Shown here: one piece after another, positions 39,594 to 52,332 of the stretch
Numbering within the stretch: the stretch's first letter is position 1
Layout of the letters: each line of letters begins with the position of its first letter
Origin: Acidobacteriota bacterium
GTDB taxonomy: Bacteria; Acidobacteriota; Terriglobia; Bryobacterales; Bryobacteraceae
NCBI GenBank assembly: GCA_016213775.1
Contig: JACQZR010000087.1
Location: 1 to 64,000, forward strand
DNA length: 64,000 nucleotides
Direction: 5' to 3'
The notes under the pieces: model-generated
What the model was told of the DNA's origin: nothing
Database searches by the model: none
What the model saw: the letters and a program-made list of their open reading frames with translations, nothing else
Translations under genes and position numbers: made by a program

Positions 39594-41318
39594 TTAGTTG
39601 CTGAGTGTTTTTTGCAGCTTTGCGAGCGAGTAAGTGTTGAGCACGTCATCGGCGGTGAGCCAGCCGCGGCGGGCCATGGCGACGCCATACGGCATGTTGT
39701 GCAGATGCTTGGGGTGATGGGCATCGGTGGAGATGACGAAACGGATGCCGTGCGATTTGGCTAACCGGATGAACGGCGCGGACAGGTCGAGGCGTTCGGG
39801 GCTGGCGTTGATCTCCATGCAGACTTTGCGTCGGGCGGCTTCCCTGGCGACACGCTCGAAGTCGAATGGGAAGCCTTCGCGATGCATTAGAATGCGGCCG
39901 GTGGGGTGACCGAAGACCCGCACGTGCGGGCATTCGAGGGCGGCCAGCAGGCGGTCAGTCATTTCGGCGGCTTCAAGATTCATGTGGCTGTGGACGCTGG
40001 CGACAACGAAGTCGAGCTCGGCGAGGGCGTCGTTGGCGAGGTCCATGGTGCCGTCGCGTTTGATGTCGCATTCCAGGCCCGACAGGATATGGATGCCGAT
40101 GCCGCGCTTGTTGATGTCGCGGACACGTTTGGCGAAGTCCACGGCACGCTGCTCATCGAGGCCATTGGCCATGGCGAGCGCTTTGGAATGATCCGTGATC
40201 GCGATGTATTCGTAACCCAGAGCCCGGGCCGATTCGGCCATCTCTTCTAGAGACGCGCGGCCATCGGTTTCGGTTGTATGCATGTGGAGGTCGCCGCGGA
40301 TCTGGCTGGCCTCGATGAGCTTGGGGAGACGGTGTTCGGCGGCGGCTTCAATCTCGCCCTGGTTCTCGCGCAGTTCGGGAGGGATCCAATCGAGGCCGAG
40401 GGCGGCGTAGATGGACTCTTCGGTTTCAGAGGCAACGAGCTCGTTGTTATCGAGGCGGAAGAGGCCGTATTCATTGAGCGTCATGCCCATCTTGAGCGCC
40501 CGGCTGCGAAGGACGATACTGTGCTCCTTGGAGCCGGTGAAGTACTGCAAGGCTGCACCGTAGTTGTGTTTGGGCAAGGCGCGGAGATCCACCTGGATAC
40601 CTTCGAGCCCGACCTTGACACTGGCCTTGTTTTCACCCTTGACGAGCACTTCATGCACGCTCGGATGCTTGACGAACGCTTCGAGCGCGGCGTCGGCATT
40701 GGGTCCGGTGACCAACAGATCGACGTCGCCGACGGTCTCTTTGCCGCGGCGTCCGCTGCCGGCTTGGGTTGCCTGATCGATACCGTCCATGGCGCGGAAA
40801 AAGCCGATGAACTCGTTGGCGATTTGGGTGGCGAAGCTCAGCAGGAAGCGGCCGGAGCGCTGGCGGTATTGAGCGATGGAGCGGAGTACCTTTTCTTCCA
40901 GTTTGCCGCCCATGCGAGGCAAAGTCTGAAGCTTCTGTTCGCGGCAGAGGCGCTCGAGACCATCGATGGTGGAGACGCGGAAATGCTCCCAGATGAGAGC
41001 AATACTCTTAGGGCCGAGGCCTTGGATTTTGAGGAGTTCCAGGGCTGTCGGCGGGTAGCGTTCGAGCATCTGGTCGCGGCGTTCAAAGGAACCGCGTTCG
41101 GAGATCTCCTTGAGGACGGAGGCGAGGCCTTTGCCGATTCCCGCGATCTCGGTAACCTTGCGGGCGGGGTTCTTGAGGATGTCCTCGATGCGCTCGGGGA
41201 GACCCTCGATTGCGGACGCACCATTCCTATAGCTGCGGATGCGGAAGCCGTCTTCGCCGGCGATCTCCATGAGGTCGGCAGTTTCAGAGAGTAGTTGTGC
41301 GATTTCGCGGTTTTCCAT
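39594..41318 (-). CDS. polX: DNA polymerase/3'-5' exonuclease PolX
   Basis: The start at 41318 ([10 protein letters not shown]) matches family N-termini; the open frame extends 22 codons upstream into the dispersed repeat. The 574-residue protein has N-terminal helix-hairpin-helix domains ([15 protein letters not shown]), a family X nucleotidyltransferase centre ([14 protein letters not shown], with the second acidic pair in VDLRA) and a C-terminal PHP domain ([39 protein letters not shown]). It acts in base-excision and gap repair (family knowledge). Its first 100 or so codons and upstream sequence are duplicated 10 kb away at 51279-51755. Confidence 0.9.
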
Positions 41319-41484
41319 CGGGAGGGTTACCTCAATTAAAGCAGATCTAATAGCCACGGATGAAAGCGGGAAGGCATTTGTCATTCTGGGTTCGTGTCGT
41401 AGGTGTGGATTCGTGTCGTAGGTCTGGCGGGTGCGTTGTCCGGGGTGGCGTTATCGGTCACGGATAAACCCGGATGAACTCGGA
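41011..41484. repeat. Left copy of the polX 5'/upstream duplication
   Basis: About 474 nt covering the first 100 codons of polX and its upstream region recur at about 51279-51755, nearly identical by eye with scattered substitutions. The right copy then joins GxxExxY gene sequence directly, skipping everything between 41485 and 44323, including the terminase module. Confidence 0.85.
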
Positions 41485-41496
41485 TGAACTCGGATT
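41391..41496. repeat. Dispersed island repeat, copy 1
   Basis: The unit has a TTCGTGTCGTAGGT core (here doubled), a GTTATCGGTCACGGAT segment, and degenerate 10-12-nt steps of the GGATGAACTC type. Related copies lie at 43951-44076, 46735-46860, 51661-51755 and 52239-52332. Its reverse complement translates to the ...RVHPxSSV... strings often mis-annotated in environmental genomes. Confidence 0.8.
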
Positions 41497-41511: not shown

Positions 41512-42132
41512 TCATTTTGATTCCTTGTGTAGGCGGTGGACCTTGTTTGCCTGCCAGGCGGCGAGGCTGATGGCGATTGCGAGGTCGTCGTGCGGGGCGG
41601 TGCTGTGGCCTGTGAGGTCGAGGGCAGTAATCTCGTTGATGGCCTCCTGGGCGGATGGGAGCTTTGGGTTTATCATTAGTGACCTTGTCTGGAAAAGTGT
41701 CGCGAGGTTGTTTAGCAGAATCGTTCTCGATACGTAGTGGAACCCGCTGGATTCGGTTGGCGTGCCGGATGCGGTGATGACCAGTTTCACGAGCGACGCT
41801 TCGATGGAGTTCGCGGTGAAGAAATCGAGGAATGGAAGACCGGGACCGGTGGCGTCCACGATGAGCGTTGGGCGCGATTGGAACTCCGAGTTGCGGAGGG
41901 TGGCGCGCACGATGTTGGCGATGGCCGGGTAACTGGAGCCGAGCGGGATGCGTGTGAGGTGGCGGATCCGCAAGACGGCGTGGTAACGGTTCTGATAGGT
42001 AGCGTGGTCGCGGCCGGTGGGACGCGGGTAGTACTGGACGATGGCGATGGCCGCGGGGTCGGAGCGCTGGCCGAGGTCGAGACCGATGTAGAAGCGCGAG
42101 TCGGGCGCCGGGGACGTGGAAGGTAAGAACAT
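41512..42132 (-). CDS. Terminase large-subunit nuclease domain as a separate protein
   Basis: A 206-residue protein with an RNase H-like terminase nuclease pattern: FYIGLDLGQRSDPAAIAIV (first Asp), PTLIVDATGPGLPFLDFF (second Asp) and STAPHDDLAIAISLAAWQ (last Asp). In phages this domain is fused to the terminase ATPase and cuts concatemeric DNA (family knowledge). Here it is its own gene, 6 nt after the stop of the ATPase gene, so the large terminase is split. It is the last gene of a four-gene operon. No portal, capsid or tail genes are nearby. Confidence 0.8.
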   Translation of the reverse strand: MFLPSTSPAPDSRFYIGLDLGQRSDPAAIAIVQYYPRPTGRDHATYQNRYHAVLRIRHLTRIPLGSSYPAIANIVRATLRNSEFQSRPTLIVDATGPGLPFLDFFTANSIEASLVKLVITASGTPTESSGFHYVSRTILLNNLATLFQTRSLMINPKLPSAQEAINEITALDLTGHSTAPHDDLAIAISLAAWQANKVHRLHKESK

Positions 42133-42138
42133 GATGTT

Positions 42139-42909
42139 TCAATTGCTCCATTGGGGAATGTCAAGGTCGTAGCAGGCTTCGATGTCGCTGACCGGTATTA
42201 GCGAATTCTGAGACGAGTGGAAGGCGCAGAGGTACTCCTGCTCATAGAGGTGGAGCGGCAGGCGGGCGCGCTCCTGTGCGAGGAAATCGGGCTTGATGCG
42301 CGGGCAAGCGGTGGCGGGGACGGACAGGCGGAAGAAGCCGTTGTCATGATCAATCCATTCGTTGTGGAAGAAGCCGTGTTTGCCATTGGGGGTGGAGAGC
42401 AGCCAGAGGCGGCCAGCGGGGGAAGCGGCGAGCATGGGCAGGATGTCGAAGTAGAGTGAATCGGGGACTCGCGCCGCCTCGTCGATGATGATGAGGGAAG
42501 GCGCAGAGAAGCCGCGAATATTGTCGCCGTTGTTGGGCAGCGCGATGATGCGTGCCCGGTTGGGCAGCAGCAGGGACGCGCGGTTGAGGCCGTCGCCGCG
42601 GCGGCTGAAATTGAGCCTGGCGAGGAAGGAGGCACACTTGTGGAGTAGCAGCCCGGACTGGCGCGCGGACGGGGCCGCGATGAGGATGAGGGCATCGGGC
42701 TGGCGAACGGCGTGATAGACGGCCATGGCGGCGACGGTGGTGGACTTACCCCACTGACGCGTGCAACAGAGAATGCCACGGCTGTGCGCGGCGGAAAGAA
42801 CACTGGCCTGTTGGGGGTCAGGGGAAAAGCCGAGTGCTTCGATGGCGAATTGAACCGGATCGGCGGAGAAGCCGGACGGTATCACGTCGCCCCCCCAAGT
42901 GTCGATCAT
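42139..42909 (-). CDS. Terminase large-subunit ATPase domain as a separate protein
   Basis: The ATG at 42909 is chosen: GGGGAG lies 7 nt upstream and the ATG overlaps the previous stop by 4 nt. The 256-residue protein has a terminase-type Walker A (CTRQWGKST), Walker B with catalytic Glu (SLIIIDEAARV) and the coupling motif LLSTPNGKHGFFHNEW. These define the ATP-driven DNA translocase domain of TerL proteins (family knowledge). The nuclease domain follows as a separate gene. Whether the two subunits assemble is unknown. Confidence 0.85.
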   Translation of the reverse strand: MIDTWGGDVIPSGFSADPVQFAIEALGFSPDPQQASVLSAAHSRGILCCTRQWGKSTTVAAMAVYHAVRQPDALILIAAPSARQSGLLLHKCASFLARLNFSRRGDGLNRASLLLPNRARIIALPNNGDNIRGFSAPSLIIIDEAARVPDSLYFDILPMLAASPAGRLWLLSTPNGKHGFFHNEWIDHDNGFFRLSVPATACPRIKPDFLAQERARLPLHLYEQEYLCAFHSSQNSLIPVSDIEACYDLDIPQWSN

Positions 42910-43229
42910 ACAAATCTCCCCTTCCAACCTATTTCCTGTAAGGGTTTGAGGAAATGACAGTTGGCGTTGTAAATGATATCGCGAACCATGGCTGCTATTT
43001 CGGAATATGGTTCTAAGACGCGGCGCAATTGGAGGGCGAAGTCATTCCAGACCTTGAAATGGAGTTCGTGCACTTCGCGCGCGGCGGCGTGTATTTCTTT
43101 TTTCGCAGCGGGTTTTTCCGAGCGGGGAGGCGGCGCGGGCTCGTACGGCGGCGCATCGGGCAGGCGATGATAGCGTGCCGGGAAGACATCGGCAAGAATG
43201 ACTAACTGGGACCAGAAATCGAATGGCAT
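42906..43229 (-). CDS. Small helical protein of the terminase module
   Basis: A 107-residue protein with a Pro-rich stretch (PPYEPAPPPRSEKPAAKK) and a helical C-terminus (VHELHFKVWNDFALQLRRVL). No family is recognised. It overlaps the ATPase gene by ATGA and starts 4 nt after the upstream gene, so translation is coupled. It could be an adaptor or DNA-recognition subunit (inference from position only). Confidence 0.65.
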   Translation of the reverse strand: MPFDFWSQLVILADVFPARYHRLPDAPPYEPAPPPRSEKPAAKKEIHAAAREVHELHFKVWNDFALQLRRVLEPYSEIAAMVRDIIYNANCHFLKPLQEIGWKGRFV

Positions 43230-43233
43230 GGAA

Positions 43234-43803
43234 TTATCGATGCTCCTTAGTGCGTGAGGCGGCGTTATCGATTTCCGATTCTGGCTTGGATGTTATTGGA
43301 ATCACTGGAGATACGCCGGGTGTTGGTGTTTCAGAACAATTATCTTCGAAGCGGCGGGCGCGCATGTCGGTAAAGTTGGAGTAAGTCCTGGTATATTGCC
43401 GGTTGAGGCGGTTGATATGCAAATCCAAGCGATGGTGCGCCGGGGTATTATCTTCGAGGGAACGGTAGGCAATGGCCCAGACAGCGGGACGGTCCAGGGA
43501 CTTGTAAGTGGAGGTAATGTTTTTGGCGCAGTTATCGGCTTCGAGACCGAGGAGGGCCTCCTGCATGGCGCCAGCACGGAGGATTTGCCACTGGAGGGTG
43601 GCCATCTGGTGGACGAGTAACTGCTCGACGTGGCCCCGCGGGTCGAAGGTTTCCAGGAAGGCTGCCAGGTGATTATTGAATTCGTCCTGCGAGTCGGCGG
43701 GCAGGAGATAATGCGAAGCCGTGTGGGCCACGGATCGCTTGTTTGCCTGAGCAATGTTCCAACGGGCCTGCATGGCTTTTCTGTTTTGTTCGGTCGGCTT
43801 CAT
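43234..43803 (-). CDS. Possible small-terminase-like or DNA-binding protein opening the module
   Basis: A 189-residue protein. Its first 110 residues (NRKAMQARWNIAQANKRS, HYLLPADSQDEFNNHLAAFL, EQLLVHQMATLQWQILRA) resemble a large family of acidobacterial and planctomycete proteins with an NAxRHGL-type N-terminus followed by a helical EDxxEFxxL...WRLxRA region. That family has no established function. AGGGGA lies upstream of the ATG. As first gene of a terminase operon it occupies the place of a small terminase (inference). Confidence 0.6.
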   Translation of the reverse strand: MKPTEQNRKAMQARWNIAQANKRSVAHTASHYLLPADSQDEFNNHLAAFLETFDPRGHVEQLLVHQMATLQWQILRAGAMQEALLGLEADNCAKNITSTYKSLDRPAVWAIAYRSLEDNTPAHHRLDLHINRLNRQYTRTYSNFTDMRARRFEDNCSETPTPGVSPVIPITSKPESEIDNAASRTKEHR

Positions 43804-43950
43804 ATACGAGTTCCCCTGATTTGTTTTTAGCAGGCGCCTCGGATGAACCTACTGGAGCGAGCAGGTGGGGGTCTCGCTATGGTGCTGATTTTGTGGGGGA
43901 TACTGGTTTTTAAAATATTTTCTTTGACTGTGATCGGTTTTTTGGGGTGG

Positions 43951-44076
43951 TTTCGTGTCGTAGGTCGGCGGGGTCCTTTGGGCGAGAATGACGTTATTGG
44001 TCACGGATGAACCGGGATGAACTTGGATGAACGCGGATTTATTGAATGGAGGTGGTCTGTTGGATGAACCGGGATT
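43951..44076. repeat. Dispersed island repeat, copy 2
   Basis: A TTTCGTGTCGTAGGTCGG start, the GTTATTGGTCACGGAT segment, three GGATGAAC steps and a 3' extension that runs into the GxxExxY gene end. It is nearly identical to copy 3 at 46735-46860, which also abuts a GxxExxY gene. Confidence 0.8.
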
Positions 44077-44078
44077 CC

Positions 44079-44456
44079 TCAGCGGACGAGGCGCTTCCAT
44101 TCGAGCTTTGGGCGCTCGAAGTTGATGAGGAGGCAGATGTGGAGGTCGGCTACGCGGAGGTAGTTGAGACACTGCGCGATGTGCTGCTTGGCGAAGGCGT
44201 CCGCGCATTTTAGCTCGATGAGGAGTTGGTGGTTCACGATGATGTCTGCGGTGTAGTCTCCGAGGCGGCGGCCTTTGTAGAAGACCGGCTTGGTGACTTG
44301 GGATTCGGCGGGGATGCCGCGAAGTTCCAGTTCGATCATGAGGGCGCGTTCGTAGACTTTTTCGAGAAAGCCGGCGCCGAGGGTGTTGGCGACTTCGAAG
44401 GCGGCGGCGAGGACTTGTTCGATGAGTGCGTCGAGTTGGGGAGTATCTTGCTGCAT
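44079..44456 (-). CDS. GxxExxY family protein, PD-(D/E)xK nuclease-like, full copy
   Basis: A 125-residue protein with the family signature GFLEKVY (29-35) and a PD-(D/E)xK-like core (Asp71 in YTADIIV, then Glu81-x-Lys83 in LLIELKC). GxxExxY proteins are multicopy in many environmental genomes and of unknown role; the core suggests a nuclease (family knowledge). Its 3' side is fused to dispersed repeat copy 2. Two deleted copies lie at 46863 (internal deletion) and 51756-51888 (3' deletion), so the gene plus repeat behaves as a spreading unit here. Confidence 0.88.
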   Translation of the reverse strand: MQQDTPQLDALIEQVLAAAFEVANTLGAGFLEKVYERALMIELELRGIPAESQVTKPVFYKGRRLGDYTADIIVNHQLLIELKCADAFAKQHIAQCLNYLRVADLHICLLINFERPKLEWKRLVR

Positions 44457-44546
44457 ATTGGGTTCTACTGAAATGGTGGGATCAGCGGCTGGTTTGTCTC
44501 ATCCTATCTTGTGGAATTGTGAAGAGGCTGCCAACCGTTCTTTGCC

Positions 44547-44689: not shown

Positions 44690-44802
44690 GGGGTCGGTGT
44701 TGCGGCGCCGGTATCGGAGCATGCGCCTCAACAGATGAGTAGGGAGTGAAATTTGCACTGGATCGCTTGCAAACGATCGAGGGTGGATGTTGTCATATCG
44801 GG

Positions 44803-46644
44803 ATGAAGCGAGTGGGGCGAAATGAGCCTTGCCCTTGCCTTAGCGGGCTCAAATTCAAGAAGTGCTGCGGGCGTGTCTCCGGCGCTGCACTTGCCTTAAT
44901 GCCGAAGCGCTTTGGAGGAGAGTTGCGAGAGATCCTGAACGACAACGGGCCCGTACTTCAGAAACTAATGCGGGCAAGAGCGCGACAGGCTCTCAAGCGC
45001 CTTGACAGCCTGCAAAGCACTACGCCTCCCGAGGGGGACTTCCAGAGGTGCCTCGCACAGTTGTCCCAAATCGCGCAATTCGTAAGTGAGACGATTCCGT
45101 CCGGGCAGCGAAGCAGACACTACTGGTATCCCTTGGTCCGCCGTTGTGTTCCGGTGCTGCTGGACTGGCTCTATTGGGAAGGCGACTCCGTGAGCGTTGA
45201 GAAATCCATGGTCTGTGTTGCAGCCGGGAGACTGACTGCTCTGTCGACAGAGTGTGCGGCAGGGGAGGCTTGGGCGGGCAGCGGCATGCGGTATCGCATC
45301 AACGAGGAGGTGCTTGGGGTAGTCGCCAAAATCGCCGCACTCTCACGACTGTATTTCGATCTGCAGGGCAACCTGCGTCTAGCCGGCAAAGGCGTCCCGC
45401 TGAAGGACGCCTCCGTTACCGACCGCCTCACTCTGGACTCCATCAGCGACTATCAAGAGAGGCGTGACAAGTTCGACACGTTCACGGGCAGTTGCGGACT
45501 TTGGTGCGACCTGCCCGTGGATCGGGATCCGCCCCAAGACATTACCTACTTTCCTGGGGCTGCGAGCGCAAAAAAAGCAAGAGAACTTCCAGTACGCTGC
45601 GGACTGGATGCCGGCTTTCTTTCTCGATGGGTGTTGTCTGGCGCAACCGACGGGCCGGGAGAAAAGCACCTGGTTCCCTGGCGCAGGCTACTTGATTACA
45701 TGAGCGCAGCCGCATCGCAGTGGATCGGGGTTCCGACGAAGACGCTTGACGCGTTTCTCTATTCGTTGGGCGGGCTCACCGCGAGTATATCCGGCTTCAG
45801 CTACGGTGAATTCCGGGACGGAGGCCGGGAGTTTGAGATTCAGTGGCCGGAGGAGATGCCACAGAGAGAACGGGACCTGAGATGGAACTTCAGCAGGGAG
45901 ATTGGCGAGTTGGCTCTGGTCCGCGAATCCCCGCAACATTGGGTCCAGCGGCTTGTGGAGATTTCTGAGGTATTTGCTTCCGGAGAAGCGTCCATTTCGG
46001 CACTGACGAGCGACGAAGCCGAGGGTCTGATACGGCGGTTTTCGTTCGGCAACAAGGAGGACAATCCGCGGGAGTCCCTAGCTCTCTTCGTCCCGCTCTC
46101 GGAGAATGGGCTGGCCTTGGATCTGCTGGTTGCCGGGGACTTCCTGCACAATCTGCTGGTGGGTTGTGCGCGGAGGACAGAAAATGTTGGCGCCTGGTTA
46201 GAGAAGCAGGCAGCGAGCTTTTTTCAACGTGAGCTTGGGCTTGAGCGGGAGAGGATGATTGTGGGCCGAAGGATCGCGGGCGGCTCGCGAGAGGTGGATC
46301 TTGCATTCGTATACGAGAGAACTTTGTTTGTGATTGACTGCAAGGCCAAGGCGAAGGACGCCGTGTACCTTGCCGGATACCAGAGCCCTATCCAGAGCCG
46401 GAGGGATGATTTTGCGAAGGAACTAACATCTAAACTGCCGGCGAGGGCCCAACTGATTGACGAAGGGCACGGGCAACCCGCGATTCGCAGGGAGGATTAC
46501 GACAGCACGGTGGTATTGGTTTGCACGAGTAGTGTTGAGTACGTCCGGTTGGACGATGACGTGTTACGCGGAGACGGCAAGCTGCTGGTGGGCACACCGC
46601 GAGAGTTGTTGGTTTTGATACGTGGGCTGGCGAATGGTGGCTGA
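44803..46644 (+). CDS. SEC-C zinc-motif protein with C-terminal PD-(D/E)xK-like domain
   Basis: The ATG at 44803 places a SEC-C motif at the N-terminus (GRNEPCPCLSGLKFKKCCG), as usual for the family; a GTG at 44746 is an alternative start 19 codons earlier. The 613-residue protein has a long unassigned middle. Near the C-terminus VGRRIAGGSREVDLAFVYERTLFVIDCKAK fits a PD-(D/E)xK nuclease core (Asp about 499, Asp512-x-Lys514), followed by more alpha/beta sequence. SEC-C binds zinc and marks factors attached to diverse effectors (family knowledge). A nuclease in a defence-like island is inferred. A deleted copy of its 5' end lies at 51990-52238. Confidence 0.75.
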   Translation: MKRVGRNEPCPCLSGLKFKKCCGRVSGAALALMPKRFGGELREILNDNGPVLQKLMRARARQALKRLDSLQSTTPPEGDFQRCLAQLSQIAQFVSETIPSGQRSRHYWYPLVRRCVPVLLDWLYWEGDSVSVEKSMVCVAAGRLTALSTECAAGEAWAGSGMRYRINEEVLGVVAKIAALSRLYFDLQGNLRLAGKGVPLKDASVTDRLTLDSISDYQERRDKFDTFTGSCGLWCDLPVDRDPPQDITYFPGAASAKKARELPVRCGLDAGFLSRWVLSGATDGPGEKHLVPWRRLLDYMSAAASQWIGVPTKTLDAFLYSLGGLTASISGFSYGEFRDGGREFEIQWPEEMPQRERDLRWNFSREIGELALVRESPQHWVQRLVEISEVFASGEASISALTSDEAEGLIRRFSFGNKEDNPRESLALFVPLSENGLALDLLVAGDFLHNLLVGCARRTENVGAWLEKQAASFFQRELGLERERMIVGRRIAGGSREVDLAFVYERTLFVIDCKAKAKDAVYLAGYQSPIQSRRDDFAKELTSKLPARAQLIDEGHGQPAIRREDYDSTVVLVCTSSVEYVRLDDDVLRGDGKLLVGTPRELLVLIRGLANGG

Positions 46645-46734
46645 TGCCGGTTCCAAGTAGAAGGACTCGCGCATTGCTTGCTGGATCCTTTGGTCGGGTG
46701 TGAGGTTTGTTGCCACGGATGTTTTTGGGGGTGG

Positions 46735-46860
46735 TTTCGTGTCGTAGGTCGGCGGGATCCTTTGGGCGAGAATGGCGTTATTGGTCACGGATGAATTGGG
46801 ATGAACTCGGATGAACGCGGATTTATTGAATGGAGGTGGTCTGTTGGATGAACCGGGATT
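46735..46860. repeat. Dispersed island repeat, copy 3
   Basis: Near-identical to copy 2 (43951-44076) over its whole length, with the same 3' extension into a GxxExxY gene end. It follows the SEC-C gene. Confidence 0.8.
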
Positions 46861-47069: not shown

Positions 47070-50000
47070 TCAGCCGGGGGGTTTTTCGAGGGCGAGGAGG
47101 ATTTCGGCGGCCATGCGGTAGGGGGTCTCCGGGTCGTCTACGGAGGCGCGGGCGGCGGCAGGGTCCTGGTTGATGATGGGGATCAGTTTGGTGGTGTCGA
47201 TTTCGGGAGCGCCTCCGTCGCGGCGGTAGGCGAGATAGGCTTCGAGGGCTTGTTTGCGGGCGGCGACGGCGGCGGGTTGGTTGCCGACGGCGCGTTCGAG
47301 GTCGGTGAGGATGTCGAAGGTTTTCCAAGGGTGGGCGGTGTGGCCGAAAGGTTTGTTGCACTCGATGGCGCGATTCAGTTCGATGCGGGCTTCGTCGTGG
47401 CGATGGAGTTTGATCAACTTGTCTGCTAGGTTACCGCGAGCAAAGCCTTCTGAGCGGAGGTCCCCCGCGCTCACGAAGATGTCGACTGTCTGGCGGTACA
47501 ACCGGACTGCGTCCTCGATACGACCCGAACTGGCGTAAAGGTTCCCGAGTTGGCCGAGCGTCGTAGCCTGGCCGCTGGTGTTGCCTCGTTGCACCTGGAG
47601 GTTCAAGGAATTCTGATAGGCGTGCTCGGCGGCTTCCGGGTGTCCAGCGCTTTCGTGGACCCTCCCGATCTGGTGCCAAGCAACCGCCACCATAGGAGGC
47701 TCATTCAGACGCTCGAACGTTTCGCGAGCCTCCTGATGTAGGCGAAGGGCTTCTTTCCACTCTTGTTGAAGCATGCGAACTGTGGCAAGATTGCCCTGAC
47801 TAACGGCCCTTGCACGCGGGTCGCCAGTTTCCTTCGAAATGGCGATCGCCTGCTCATACGCAACAGCCGCTTCGTTGTGGCGCCCAAGGTCCCCAAAGCA
47901 ATCTGCCTTACCTGCGATCGCGACACCCGCCATTCGCAATTCACCCATCGCATTAAATCGCAGGCGAGCCTCTTCCAAGTGTGAAAGTGCTTGTTGTGCG
48001 TTGCCGCTGCGGGACAGTGACTTGCCTGCCAGGTTCTCCGCCATCGCGTGGTCGAAGTCTGCTGCGTCGTATGCGTTATCGCCAACGGCACTCGCTTTGG
48101 CGAGCAATGTCCCGGCTGCGCGCACCGCTTCCGCGTGGTGGCCTCGATCTATCAGGCGTTCGATCTCAACTTGCTCCACTTGAAATCCTGCATGACTCCA
48201 GCCACCTAAGTTCTTGGTTGCGGCGAGGCGGACCGCAATGATTCGGGCCAGAGCTTTTGGACGGTTGAGCGATGCAACCAACTGTTCCAGGCTGGTGGCG
48301 AGATCGACAACGCGTTCCGGGGGTTCCCTTGTTGCCATGTGCTCCAGAGCGGCAAGGGAATTTGGCAATTCGAGGTCCGTCAGGTTGCGGGCGAGGACGG
48401 GATCCTCAAAAAGCTGCCCGTACAGGAACTGGATCTCCGCCGCAATGCCGCTGGCCCATGCGACTACGGCTGCGGTCCGCTCATCGGGTGAGAGGTCTGC
48501 TCCCATAAAGGCCGGATCGAAGCGGAGGTATTGCGGCTCGACGTACTCGGCCAACCCAACTTCAATGAGGGCACGGGCGAGGGCATTGAGTCCTGCCTGA
48601 TCCAGTTTCAAGGCCGGTGCAATTGCGTGGCCGCCTCCTCCGCCGTGGAACACACTCAACGGCCGAATCAACTCGCGGGTCCCGGGAGGCAGGCGGCGCA
48701 GGGAGAGTTCGGCGCTTGCGAGGAGGGAGTTCTCTCTCTGTCCGGGATGTTTGGCTTCGAGTTCCTTCATGATTTGCAGAAGGTTTTCGGTGGCGTGGCG
48801 GACTCCAGCGGCTCCTACTTCGCGGGCGATGAGGACCAAGCTGCGGGCGTGGCAGTCGACGGCGTCCACTAGTTTCTTGATGTCTTCGTCGTGGCCGCTG
48901 AAATCTGGCGTTTTGTGAAGAACGTTGCCGACAAGGCGGATGGCGCTTTGCCGATCGAGGCGACCGATGGAGAGTACGTTTTCGTTGAACGGGGACGGAA
49001 GGGCTTCGCGAGTGGTGAAGATGATCTTCGCGGGAAGCTTGCTGCAGAGGTCGAGGATTTCGTGGAGGCCGTCAAGATCTAGCAGCGACTCCATGTTGTC
49101 GATGACGAGGAGCGTCGGATGTTCCCGAAAGGCACGATCGAGGAGTTGACGGCCGAGTTCGTCGTCCGTTCCGGCTTGTGCTGCGAAGTTGGGTACGAGT
49201 TGCGCGCCGAGGGAGAAGAGGACTTGCCGGCGTTCGGTGATTTGTTCGACGGAACAAAATGCCGCGCGATGGAAACGGCGGGTTGCGACGAGCCAGCGGG
49301 CGAGTTCGGCGGCAAACGTGGTTTTGCCTTCGCCTCCTGCGCCCTTCACTACGAGATATGGCTTCTGATCGAGGATGCGCTCGCCTTTGAGGAGATCGCG
49401 GCTGCGGCCGAGGAATTGGTGCGGAGGTTCCGGGGGGAGATCGCCGAGCGCGCGGTTCTGTTGCTCCTTGAGGACCGGCTCCACTTGCTTCGCCGGTAGT
49501 TTGTGGATGAGTTGCGGGTCCTGCTCTTCCTGGAAGAGGACGGGGACAAACCAGTCATGGAGGTGCACTTCGCCTTGGAAGGTTTTCCCTCGCAGCGTGT
49601 CGGATTGGAGGGTACGTTGGCCGGCGAGCATGGCTTGTCCGACTCGCTTGCCGCTGAGCAGCTCCTGATAGAACACCGTGATGAAGAGGCGGGCGGTTTC
49701 GACCAGGACGGAGTGCGTCATCGCGGCAACGGACGAGACTCCGCTTTCGAGCAGTTTTCCGGCGACGGAGGCGGAGGGATCGGTGTCGGTTTTGGCGGAC
49801 TGGCAGGCTTCGAGGAAGAAGAGGGGAACGCGGTGGTCGCGGACGATGGCGGCGATGTCGGCGGCATCGATCAGTTTGCTGCCGCGCTTTTCCAATTTGT
49901 GTTGATCGGCGGGGTCTTCAAAGCAGAGCATGCCGAGGCCGTGCTTATGGTCGTAGACGCCGTGGCCGTCGAAGTGGACGACGTGGTAGGGTTCGCCGGC

Positions 50001-51191
50001 TTCGGCGGCGCGGATGAGCTCGTTCTGGAGCGCGGGGAAGGTGGCTGGGGTGAGGAGGTGGAAGTGGGCGAGGTCGTCGAGTTGGGAGAATGCTTCGACT
50101 AAGGGACGGGCGCTGATGCGGTGGTCAATGTAGGTGGCGGATTTGTCTTCCGGGCGTGGGCTTATGAGGAGGACGCGGATGGGCGGGTCCGTGGTGAGGG
50201 CGGGTTGTTTGTGTCGATTGGGGAGGCTCCGGCGGACACGCACGCCGCGCTTTCCTTGTGACAGGAAGGTGCGCTCGTCGTGGAGGAGTTCCCAGGGGAG
50301 GCCGAGCAGGAGGGTTGCCGCTTCGTTGGCGTCCTGCTGCTGGGCAGGGGGCGTTCCGGCGATTAACTCGTGATCCACTTTGATAGTGAAGCGGCGGTCG
50401 GCTGTGGCGGATTTCCAGGCTTCGAGGGCTGTGCGGGCGGTGTCGTTGTTGAGGGTGTCGTAGAGCAGGCGGCCCCATTGCGGGAGGGATTGGACGACGG
50501 TGGCGGCGCGGGTTTGGAAGTAGCCGGTGGGCCAGTTGATGTAGCGTTCGAGATACCAGGAAAGCTCTTCGGCTTCGATGGGTCCGATGGGGGCGGTGAA
50601 ACGGAAGCGGGGGCTTTCCACTTTGGGGCTGGCGTCGGGGGGAGTGTAGGTGAGGGTGGCGGTGGCGGTGGCGCGGCGCTTGCCTTCCTCCTGGTGGATG
50701 GCGGGGTCAGTGAGGGTGAGGACGAGGTCGGCTAGTGGGGGGGGTGGGGCGATGGTGGGTTGGATGGTCTCAGTGGGGAGTTGGAGGCCGAGGGCGGCCC
50801 GGATGGCGGGGAGTGCTTCGGCGATTGCGGATGGGCCGGTGCCGAGCGTGATTCCCAGGGTGTCCACGCCGATGAGTCGTTTGAGGATTTGGGGGCCGAT
50901 GTCCGGCTGCTTGATGGGGATGATTTTGTAGCCAGGTTTGGTGACGGTTTTGGCGTGTTCGATTTCGTGATCGACCCATTGGGAGTTGAGGGAGTTGATG
51001 GTGACGAGGACTACGAATGAGCCGGCGGTTTCGATGGCGGTTTTGATTTTGTGGTCGAGTTTGTCGCCGGCGGTGAGGCGTTCGGAGTCGGTCCAGACTT
51101 CGATGTCGAGGGCTTCGAGGGATTGGCGGAGTTGGCGGACGAGGGGGTCGTCTTTTTCGGAGTGGGAAAAGAAGACGGATTTCGAGGGCAT
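47070..51191 (-). CDS. TIR-CHAT-STAND(NB-ARC-like)-TPR protein
   Basis: A 1373-residue single polypeptide. Residues 1-135 form a TIR domain (KSVFFSHSEKDDPLVRQL; SQWVDHEIEHA with candidate catalytic Glu76). A linker of the type found before CHAT domains (LSWYLERYINWP, 210-220) follows. Residues about 290-545 form a CHAT caspase-like protease with His410 (HFDGHG) and Cys463 (FLEACQSA). Residues about 590-840 are a STAND NTPase with Walker A GAGGEGKTT (617-625), Walker B LLVIDN (694-699) and TTRE (726-729). TPR repeats fill about 1040-1320. TIR domains cleave NAD and CHAT domains cleave proteins in cell-death immunity; STAND/TPR modules sense a trigger (family knowledge). Two effector domains under one sensor is unusual. 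It sits between duplicated island fragments. Confidence 0.92.
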   Translation of the reverse strand: MPSKSVFFSHSEKDDPLVRQLRQSLEALDIEVWTDSERLTAGDKLDHKIKTAIETAGSFVVLVTINSLNSQWVDHEIEHAKTVTKPGYKIIPIKQPDIGPQILKRLIGVDTLGITLGTGPSAIAEALPAIRAALGLQLPTETIQPTIAPPPPLADLVLTLTDPAIHQEEGKRRATATATLTYTPPDASPKVESPRFRFTAPIGPIEAEELSWYLERYINWPTGYFQTRAATVVQSLPQWGRLLYDTLNNDTARTALEAWKSATADRRFTIKVDHELIAGTPPAQQQDANEAATLLLGLPWELLHDERTFLSQGKRGVRVRRSLPNRHKQPALTTDPPIRVLLISPRPEDKSATYIDHRISARPLVEAFSQLDDLAHFHLLTPATFPALQNELIRAAEAGEPYHVVHFDGHGVYDHKHGLGMLCFEDPADQHKLEKRGSKLIDAADIAAIVRDHRVPLFFLEACQSAKTDTDPSASVAGKLLESGVSSVAAMTHSVLVETARLFITVFYQELLSGKRVGQAMLAGQRTLQSDTLRGKTFQGEVHLHDWFVPVLFQEEQDPQLIHKLPAKQVEPVLKEQQNRALGDLPPEPPHQFLGRSRDLLKGERILDQKPYLVVKGAGGEGKTTFAAELARWLVATRRFHRAAFCSVEQITERRQVLFSLGAQLVPNFAAQAGTDDELGRQLLDRAFREHPTLLVIDNMESLLDLDGLHEILDLCSKLPAKIIFTTREALPSPFNENVLSIGRLDRQSAIRLVGNVLHKTPDFSGHDEDIKKLVDAVDCHARSLVLIAREVGAAGVRHATENLLQIMKELEAKHPGQRENSLLASAELSLRRLPPGTRELIRPLSVFHGGGGGHAIAPALKLDQAGLNALARALIEVGLAEYVEPQYLRFDPAFMGADLSPDERTAAVVAWASGIAAEIQFLYGQLFEDPVLARNLTDLELPNSLAALEHMATREPPERVVDLATSLEQLVASLNRPKALARIIAVRLAATKNLGGWSHAGFQVEQVEIERLIDRGHHAEAVRAAGTLLAKASAVGDNAYDAADFDHAMAENLAGKSLSRSGNAQQALSHLEEARLRFNAMGELRMAGVAIAGKADCFGDLGRHNEAAVAYEQAIAISKETGDPRARAVSQGNLATVRMLQQEWKEALRLHQEARETFERLNEPPMVAVAWHQIGRVHESAGHPEAAEHAYQNSLNLQVQRGNTSGQATTLGQLGNLYASSGRIEDAVRLYRQTVDIFVSAGDLRSEGFARGNLADKLIKLHRHDEARIELNRAIECNKPFGHTAHPWKTFDILTDLERAVGNQPAAVAARKQALEAYLAYRRDGGAPEIDTTKLIPIINQDPAAARASVDDPETPYRMAAEILLALEKPPG

Positions 51192-51278: not shown

Positions 51279-51755
51279 GTGGCCCGAGGCCATGGATTTT
51301 GAGGAGGTCCAGGGCTGTGGGCGGGTAGCGTTCGAGCATCTGGTCGCGGCGTTCAAAGGAGCCGCGTTCGGCGATCTCCTTGAGGACGGAGGCGAGGCCC
51401 TTGCCGATTCCCGCGATTTCGGTGACGTTGCGGGCGGGGTTGTTGAGGATGTCCTCGATGCGCTCGGGGAGACCTGCGATCGCGGACGCACCATTCCTAT
51501 AGCTGCGGATGCGGAAGCTGTCTTCGCCGGCGATCTCCATGAGGTCGGCGGTTTCAGAGAGTAGTTGTGCGATTTCGCGGTTTTCCATCGGGAGGGTTAC
51601 CTCAATTAGAACAGATCTAATAGCCACGGATGAAAGCGGGAAGGCATTTGTCATCTTGGGTTCGTGTCGTAGGTGTGGATTCGTGTCGTAGGTCTGGCGG
51701 GTGCGTTGTCCGGGAGTGGCGTTATCGGTCACGGATAAACCCGGATGAACTCGGA
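51279..51755. repeat. Right copy of the polX 5'/upstream duplication
   Basis: Matches 41011-41484 nearly base for base, ending at the same dispersed repeat. At 51755/51756 it jumps to GxxExxY gene sequence that corresponds to 44324 in the left copy. Confidence 0.85.
51661..51755. repeat. Dispersed island repeat, copy 4
   Basis: The same doubled GTGTCGTAGGT start as copy 1 (41391-41496), but cut after one GGATGAAC step where the GxxExxY remnant begins. Confidence 0.8.
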
Positions 51756-51989: not shown

Positions 51990-52238
51990 TTGCCGCGCCC
52001 TTGCCATAGCGGGCTCAAATTCAAGAAGTGCCGCGGGGGTGTCTCCGGCGCTGCACTTGCCTTAACGCCGAAGCGTTTTGGGGATGAGTTCCGAGAGATC
52101 CTGAACGACAACGGGTCCGAACTTCAGAAACTCATGCGGGCAACAGCGCGACGGGCTCTCAAGCGCCTGGACAGCTTGCAAAGCACCACGCTTCCCGAGG
52201 GGGACTTCCCAAATTGCGCAATTCGTAAGTGAGACGAT
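51990..52238 (+). pseudogene. Remnant of the SEC-C gene 5' end
   Basis: Matches the left SEC-C gene from just inside its zinc motif (CHSGLKFKKCRG in translation, with the second CC lost) to about codon 100, with a 22-nt internal deletion near 52207. It then breaks into the dispersed repeat at 52239. Start codon, PCPC and nuclease domain are missing. The preceding spacer (51889-51983) also matches the left copy but lacks its 143-bp hairpin. Confidence 0.75.
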
Positions 52239-52332
52239 TTTGTGTCGTAGGTCGGCGGGGTCCTTTGGGTGAGAATGACGTTATTGGTCACGGATGAACT
52301 CGGATGAACTTGGATGAACACTGATACGGACG
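52239..52332. repeat. Dispersed island repeat, copy 5
   Basis: A TGTGTCGTAGGTCGG core, GTTATTGGTCACGGAT and three GGATGAAC steps, ending in CTGATACGGACG. It marks the right edge of the accessory island; ordinary single-copy sequence resumes after it. Confidence 0.78.

Follow-up and report, generated by a model that had tools for sequence, protein, structure and literature searches.

What is the packaging motor of a phage doing, in two pieces, in a bacterial chromosome? The terminase large subunit (TerL) is the engine that fills viral heads. A preliminary description of a 64,000-nucleotide stretch of a Bryobacteraceae genome (Acidobacteriota; hereafter the window) singled out four coupled genes, for a TerL-type ATPase, a separate TerL-type nuclease and two small proteins, as a stand-alone, split, non-prophage module of domesticated appearance. 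The four open reading frames, with the ATPase and the nuclease on separate genes, are confirmed (Table 1), and since about 100 related copies exist the module is not a chance arrangement. Here we ask what these genes are, how far the unit that carries them extends, where the split came from and which function would best explain its retention.

Table 1. Coordinates of the terminase unit and of adjoining features in the window.
Feature	Position	Strand	Basis
TerL-type nuclease, separate gene, 206 aa	41512..42132	-	ORF list, PHROG, profile, fold model
TerL-type packaging ATPase, separate gene, 262 aa	42139..42927	-	Pfam, PHROG, motifs, profile
107-aa protein, TerS-tail-like C-terminus	42906..43229	-	Motif by regular expression
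189-aa protein, T family member	43234..43803	-	HMM E=2e-24, alignment, fold
Left end of unit: TCAC (minus strand 43933-43930), then A/T-rich run	43804..43933	-	Copy comparison
Dispersed ~90-nt repeat of ~10-nt periodic CGGATGAAC units, just outside right end	41405..41496	+	
Second copy of ~90-nt repeat, just outside left end	43947..44039	+	
Neighbour outside unit: GxxExxY-family PD-(D/E)XK protein, 125 aa	44079..44456	-	Pfam/NCBIfam
Neighbour outside unit: 1373-aa protein, N-terminal TIR-like domain and TPR repeats	47070..51191	-	PADLOC TIR/ThsB-like, TPR

A TerL motor, a separate nuclease and two small proteins

The ATPase and nuclease genes are 6 nt apart by their ORF positions in the window, and the 107-aa gene overlaps the start of the ATPase gene by 22 nt. 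The ATPase matches Pfam Terminase_6N (E=6e-9) and PHROG 7579, a 239-residue family named 'terminase large subunit' (E=2e-42), and a profile of its relatives matches TerL/gp17 structures with E-values down to 1.5e-20. Its Walker A (RQWGKST), Walker B (IIIDEAA, containing the DE pair) and coupling (STP) motifs are kept in relatives. The nuclease matches PHROG 27743, an unnamed family of 233 residues (E=2e-23), and its family profile matches the TerL nuclease structures 5m1f, 5m1q and 5tge (E 4e-7 to 9e-7). The top PDB matches of its AlphaFold2 model (pLDDT 91) are the TerL nucleases of G20c, HCMV and SPP1, and the acidic residues of the RNase H-like site (GLDLG, VDATG, HDDL) are conserved across relatives. 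Motor and nuclease are shown by these comparisons to be TerL homologues with intact active-site motifs; unlike the usual TerL, the window does not have both domains on a single polypeptide.

Neither small protein has a direct match in Pfam, NCBIfam or PHROG. The C-terminal stretch of the 107-aa protein resembles the tail of phage TerS (W..i...L.PY.E.....), by pattern in the window copy; seven chromosomal copies (L212, L156, L064, L067, L179, L087 and L063) match a TerS-tail profile at E<1e-10, a level that no decoy reached, and in 9 copies or more the small gene ahead of the ATPase encodes a TerS-like tail. In most copies of the module the canonical DNA-binding part of TerS is missing. The 189-aa protein belongs to a family, here called T, whose HMM it matches although it lay outside the seed (E=2e-24); the window copy has lost part of the family motif, ANGAxSxGPxTPxGKxRSSxNAxxHGL. 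Canonical members of T have no Pfam or PHROG match, and no open-access paper on the motif was found. The protein is predicted to be all-helical (pLDDT 85). Classical TerS was considered as an identity for T and rejected, the T profile having no match to phage TerS and the model no structural match in the PDB.

T is far more numerous than TerL. There are 32 copies in the window's own genome, 45 in a genome with a single weak ATPase match and 18 in a two-contig genome with no ATPase match, and a trace of the ATPase was seen at only 1 of 60 sampled T-only loci. Among the rows of the ATPase tree described below, 29 have T upstream of the ATPase and codirectional with it and 24 have it upstream and divergent; in 46 it was not found nearby, partly owing to contig ends. 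T is an undescribed, very abundant dispersed family in Bryobacterales (L345-L364, L365-L404), present without TerL in many genomes. Both types of small partner recur with the pair, but not always, and T also occurs alone.

A discrete unit repeated at unrelated sites

The window's own genome (10.96 Mb in 314 contigs) contains 10 ATPase and 10 nuclease matches, representing about 10-15 copies, several of which run into contig ends, as repeats are expected to do; the assembly may have collapsed recent copies. ATPase matches are present in 36 of 101 related genomes, with up to 14 per genome (two relatives have 14 and 12). The strong matches among these 101 are confined to the window's own family, and the weak matches outside it probably represent ordinary TerL of phages. 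Across 297 genomes spread over the phylum, only four others have strong matches. In a named collection 199 stretches encode relatives, the best 80 of which come nearly all from Bryobacterales or other Acidobacteria; two of the loci, L063 and L150, are one and the same contig, present both in a genome of the window's genus and in Bryobacterales MAG-244.

Comparison of copies defines the edges. A second four-gene copy, on contig C257 (L050), is 92% identical to the window in DNA over 41522-43920 and shows no similarity outside: the match is lost at the nuclease stop codon on the right and near a TCAC on the left, and other copies in the same genome likewise stop at the nuclease stop codon. A left end of TCAC followed by an A/T-rich run is common to units with T alone, with TerL alone and with both. 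The left part is shared between T-only and TerL-bearing units, and some of the former are 86-91% identical in DNA to the T portion of T+TerL units. Where the members of a pair have unrelated flanks (L347/L348, L351/L352 and L363/L054) the left edge falls at, or at most 2 bases from, the TCAC, and it is likewise at or near TCAC in TerL units without T (L189/L209); the exception is the pair L345/L346, which starts TCAG. Of 108 T units, 68 have TCAC with an A/T-rich run at a distance of 70-260 nt upstream of T (27.6 in shuffles, maximum 40), and 24 of 42 TerL units without T have it as well (10.2 in shuffles, maximum 16), counts that are indicative, as shuffling was in blocks of three and close copies are non-independent. 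TCAC also ranks first of the 256 tetranucleotides upstream of T units. Viral upstream regions show no excess of the motif (26 of 64 against 20.9). On the right, several T-only units end at the stop codon of T or a few bases short of it; in L351, L352, L347-L349, L353 and L354 the T frame reaches or passes the edge, and the stop (TGA, TAG or TAA) comes from the flank. The unit is thus shown to be discrete, running from the TCAC and A/T-rich run to the nuclease stop codon, and it is repeated at unrelated sites of one genome, as mobile elements are. The overlap of the nuclease stop codon with an ATG was considered as coupling to a following gene and discarded; the apparent starts mostly belong to extended frames, and the real genes lie at variable distance.

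Ordinary chromosomal genes flank the copies, with a different set at each. A distance of 8 bp separates the end of the L052 copy from the NadE stop codon, and in 8 of 9 genus relatives this codon overlaps the beginning of a beta-propeller gene; the beta-propeller gene of the window's genome is on another contig than NadE. Because the POLX and NadE loci of the genus relatives contain no ATPase, nuclease or T match, the window's locus and the L052 locus look like lineage-specific insertions, with the reservation that the relatives are distant (flanking-gene orthologues about 65-82% identical in protein, a divergence above strain level) and their flanks rearranged. At L324 (G000:C197) a module lies between NadE and an apparent type I restriction-modification island, and NadE is separated from the beta-propeller gene to which it is coupled in relatives.

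The direct repeats of about 90 nt on either side of the window's unit (Table 1) were considered as its own ends and rejected, as they are not conserved around other modules. Further copies lie in the window at 46731-46829, 51675-51755 and 52238-52325, and about 22 clear copies are present in the genome; 7 of 24 examined copies precede a T gene by 94-354 bp and share one orientation relative to it, which is also that of the copy at 43947..44039. This tie to the 5' side of T is seen in the window's genome only, and periodic motifs near modules are weakly enriched (1.53 against 1.04 per kb). The segment 51253-52325 is a decayed local duplicate in which 41011-41484 is joined to 44320-44546 and parts of 44831-45096; it was discarded as an 'empty site' of the window locus, the junction of 41484 with 44320 being a deletion across the terminase locus.

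IS200/IS605-type and other single-gene elements are short, have no visible terminal repeats or target duplication, and combine a fixed left tetranucleotide with a right edge at the gene end. The unit is like them in its short form, fixed left tetranucleotide and gene-end right edge, but it lacks their HUH/Y1 or DDE transposase. No transposase or recombinase was recognised among its proteins in Pfam, NCBIfam or PHROG, and inspection by eye found no terminal inverted repeat or target-site duplication. One full-length Y1 (HUH) transposase gene lies away from the unit in the same genome (G000:C9:28108-28461, L405); it is a possible, putative trans-acting mobiliser of units with the fixed TCAC left edge.

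The reading that we favour, at somewhat better than even confidence, is that of a dispersed, mobile-type chromosomal cassette in Bryobacterales (Acidobacteriota) with a retained split terminase. It must be weighed against the missing transposase, recombinase, inverted repeats and target duplications, and against genomes that contain many T units but no TerL, in which T has spread without it. A different reading, which we regard as unlikely, makes the terminase pair the transposition engine of a new class of mobile element, by analogy with MuB/MuA or TnsC/TnsB, the T-only units being dependants or relics. Such an engine would fit the pairing of a motor with an RNase H-fold nuclease in discrete units that occur in many copies and have a defined left end, the sharing of that end by TerL-only units, and the close DNA match of some T-only to T+TerL units. 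However, T-only units are under strong selection (dN/dS 0.015-0.066) without TerL, including in the two-contig genome, and we know of no strand-transfer activity in TerL nucleases. As T-only units spread in genomes without TerL, we think that TerL is not strictly needed for spread; it is more likely to be an added function or an alternative engine than the sole engine.

Phage relatives and the origin of the split

Capsid and tail families are absent from the PHROG matches of the 44 window proteins, and the structural and integration genes of a prophage are not found beside the terminase, save for a single weak hit (2.6e-7) to a family whose 'portal protein' label comes from one unidentified member. 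Portal and capsid HMMs made from related phages match none of the bacterial loci, the window included, and no neighbour beyond T, ATPase and nuclease is conserved among the modules. The stand-alone, non-prophage and domesticated-looking character of the module is thereby upheld, and the condition under which the preliminary description would have abandoned it, that homologous modules always lie within complete prophages, does not apply to these loci.

The same pair is, however, found in viruses. Twenty-two IMG/VR loci (L230-L251) strongly resemble the window ATPase, at 33-48% identity, and represent tailed phages with the same two adjacent genes (PHROG 7579 and 27743) and a small protein before them. 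In the inspected loci, two of which were checked against PHROG for gene order, a TerS-like gene, the ATPase and the separate nuclease are followed by portal, scaffold and capsid; split TerL therefore exists in real phages. The chromosomal clade lacks these three structural genes and, unlike the phages, has T, a TerS-like protein in reduced form and a TCAC left end of its own. The split is real, then, but it is not special to the module. The closest ATPase matches among annotated phages (39%) are the TerL proteins of Thermus phage Riverbug and Meiothermus phages MMP7 and MMP17; Riverbug and MMP17 have one fused TerL of about 415 aa, unlike the two genes of the window, and the window nuclease has no match in the same collection.

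In an ATPase tree of 116 sequences, of the 'quick' type in which long branches can be misplaced, the 99 chromosomal ATPases all group in a single clade (SH-aLRT 96). Every one of the 14 scorable viral rows is split; of the 90 scored chromosomal rows, 72 are split and 18 fused, and eight state changes are needed on the tree. These proportions suggest that the split is likely to be the ancestral state and fusion secondary. The rows nearest the window, L050 and L063, are both split, so that the suspicion of frames fused in close relatives is not borne out, and the recent breakage of a fused TerL is rejected by the tree. The wider proposal of decayed prophage remnants or a recently broken single chain is the least probable of those considered here. 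The proteins are phage-derived, and scattered phage-related genes have been reported in Solibacter usitatus Ellin6076 (PMC3174227), which would suit remnants; against this, catalytic residues are conserved, dN/dS is well below 1, the split appears ancestral, and the unit is sharply bounded and repeated, with no other phage genes.

Might the terminase instead serve the heads of another phage, as the preliminary description suggested? Such a capsid-hijacking satellite or gene transfer agent (GTA) component would, like capsid-dependent satellites, have a terminase without a capsid, and the retained TerS-tail-like protein could be counted in its favour. Yet no integrase, replication, regulator or structural gene is conserved around the about 100 copies, and the integrase, regulators and packaging genes that share one island in PICI and cf-PICI satellites are not assembled here. 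The copies, each about 2.4 kb long, are scattered, with as many as 14 matches in one genome, and most of them lack the canonical DNA-binding part of TerS. We consider this reading highly improbable, and the satellite claim is not supported. GTAs retain head and tail genes, and none was found around the terminase modules. They do resemble the unit in having a phage-derived terminase kept by the host; one account derives GTAs from domesticated phages (PMC11841831).

No open-access paper describing comparable split or domesticated terminases was found. The TerL protein itself is already known; neither the databases nor the open-access papers searched contained a dispersed, capsid-less, cassette-borne clade of TerL pairs sharing a left end, and the cassette fits no prophage, satellite, GTA or described defence system.

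Selection, defence genes and possible function

Between the window and C257, dN/dS is 0.09 for the nuclease, 0.16 for the ATPase, 0.15 for the 107-aa protein and 0.26 for the 189-aa protein; other pairs give 0.06-0.54, and T-only pairs 0.015-0.066. These values are well below 1, which indicates that the proteins are kept functional under purifying selection. A benefit to the host could explain the strong purifying selection in every copy equally well, a point that weighs against the cassette reading, and the neighbourhood raises the same issue. Among the families listed for 148 nearest-neighbour proteins of modules are at least three Cas6 and at least two Cas3, together with type I and II methyltransferases, DndB, BrxA, DrmC and SoFic. 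Those listed for 145 proteins from random control regions are only of the Ser/Thr kinase type, and those for 106 neighbours of T-only units include one Cas1 and few others; all such counts, being taken from the families listed, are lower bounds. The modules are thus located among defence genes, those of CRISPR, BREX, DISARM, Dnd and restriction-modification systems being in excess, with a weaker contrast against T-only neighbours. By inspection, a BREX-like ATPase lies beside L051 and a type I restriction-modification system beside L052.

The surroundings contain further genes of this kind. Modules L089, L181 and L206 adjoin genes resembling CRISPR Cas6. The 1373-aa TIR/TPR protein of the window is probably defence-related and a possible effector, and a 632-aa protein beside the module (44746-46644) carries a SEC-C motif at its N-terminus and weakly matches the NERD nuclease-related domain. 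GxxExxY-family genes lie directly upstream of the module in L086 (402-767) and in the window (44079-44456), and relatives of them lie between ATPase and nuclease in L068 (8699-9004) and L085 (2971-3282).

This setting would be expected of an anti-phage defence module, in which phage or plasmid DNA entering the cell would be degraded or mis-processed by the motor-nuclease, for example through competition with the phage packaging motor, and which is kept and duplicated through host protection. Purifying selection, the CRISPR, BREX, modification and TIR neighbours and their absence from the families listed for controls all argue for it, and we hold it as a tentative alternative of lower probability than the cassette. 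The up to 14 matches per genome, spread within genomes and fragments have the look of a mobile element; mobile elements are drawn to defence islands in any case; T-only neighbourhoods differ from those of modules to a modest degree; and PADLOC has no model for any of the four proteins, none of which it matched, placing them outside its described defence families. In practice the cassette, defence and engine readings overlap.

To return to the cassette, its history and workings can be sketched from the comparisons above. The split terminase would go back to a single capture from a phage lineage in which TerL had already become two genes. T and the TerS-tail-like 107-aa protein may bind DNA and recruit the ATPase, which would move along or loop double-stranded DNA and present it to the separate nuclease for cutting. 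The cassette would spread by way of the ends common to T-only, TerL-only and T+TerL units, and TerL may be an alternative engine or a retained cargo acting on foreign or competing DNA. A more specific proposal, which we put forward as possible though doubtful, is that an unrecognised class of mobile elements, characterised by the TCAC and A/T-rich left end and by T, captured a split terminase as machinery for mobility or competition without the virus.

The modules tie together an abundant hypothetical family, T, and the multi-copy units of large Acidobacteria genomes. In them a motor and a cutter, apparently captured once and still active-looking, stand apart from every other viral part and have spread among the chromosomes of a phylum abundant in soil. 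Should the motor prove to work where there is no portal, it would reveal what a packaging ATPase is capable of on naked DNA.
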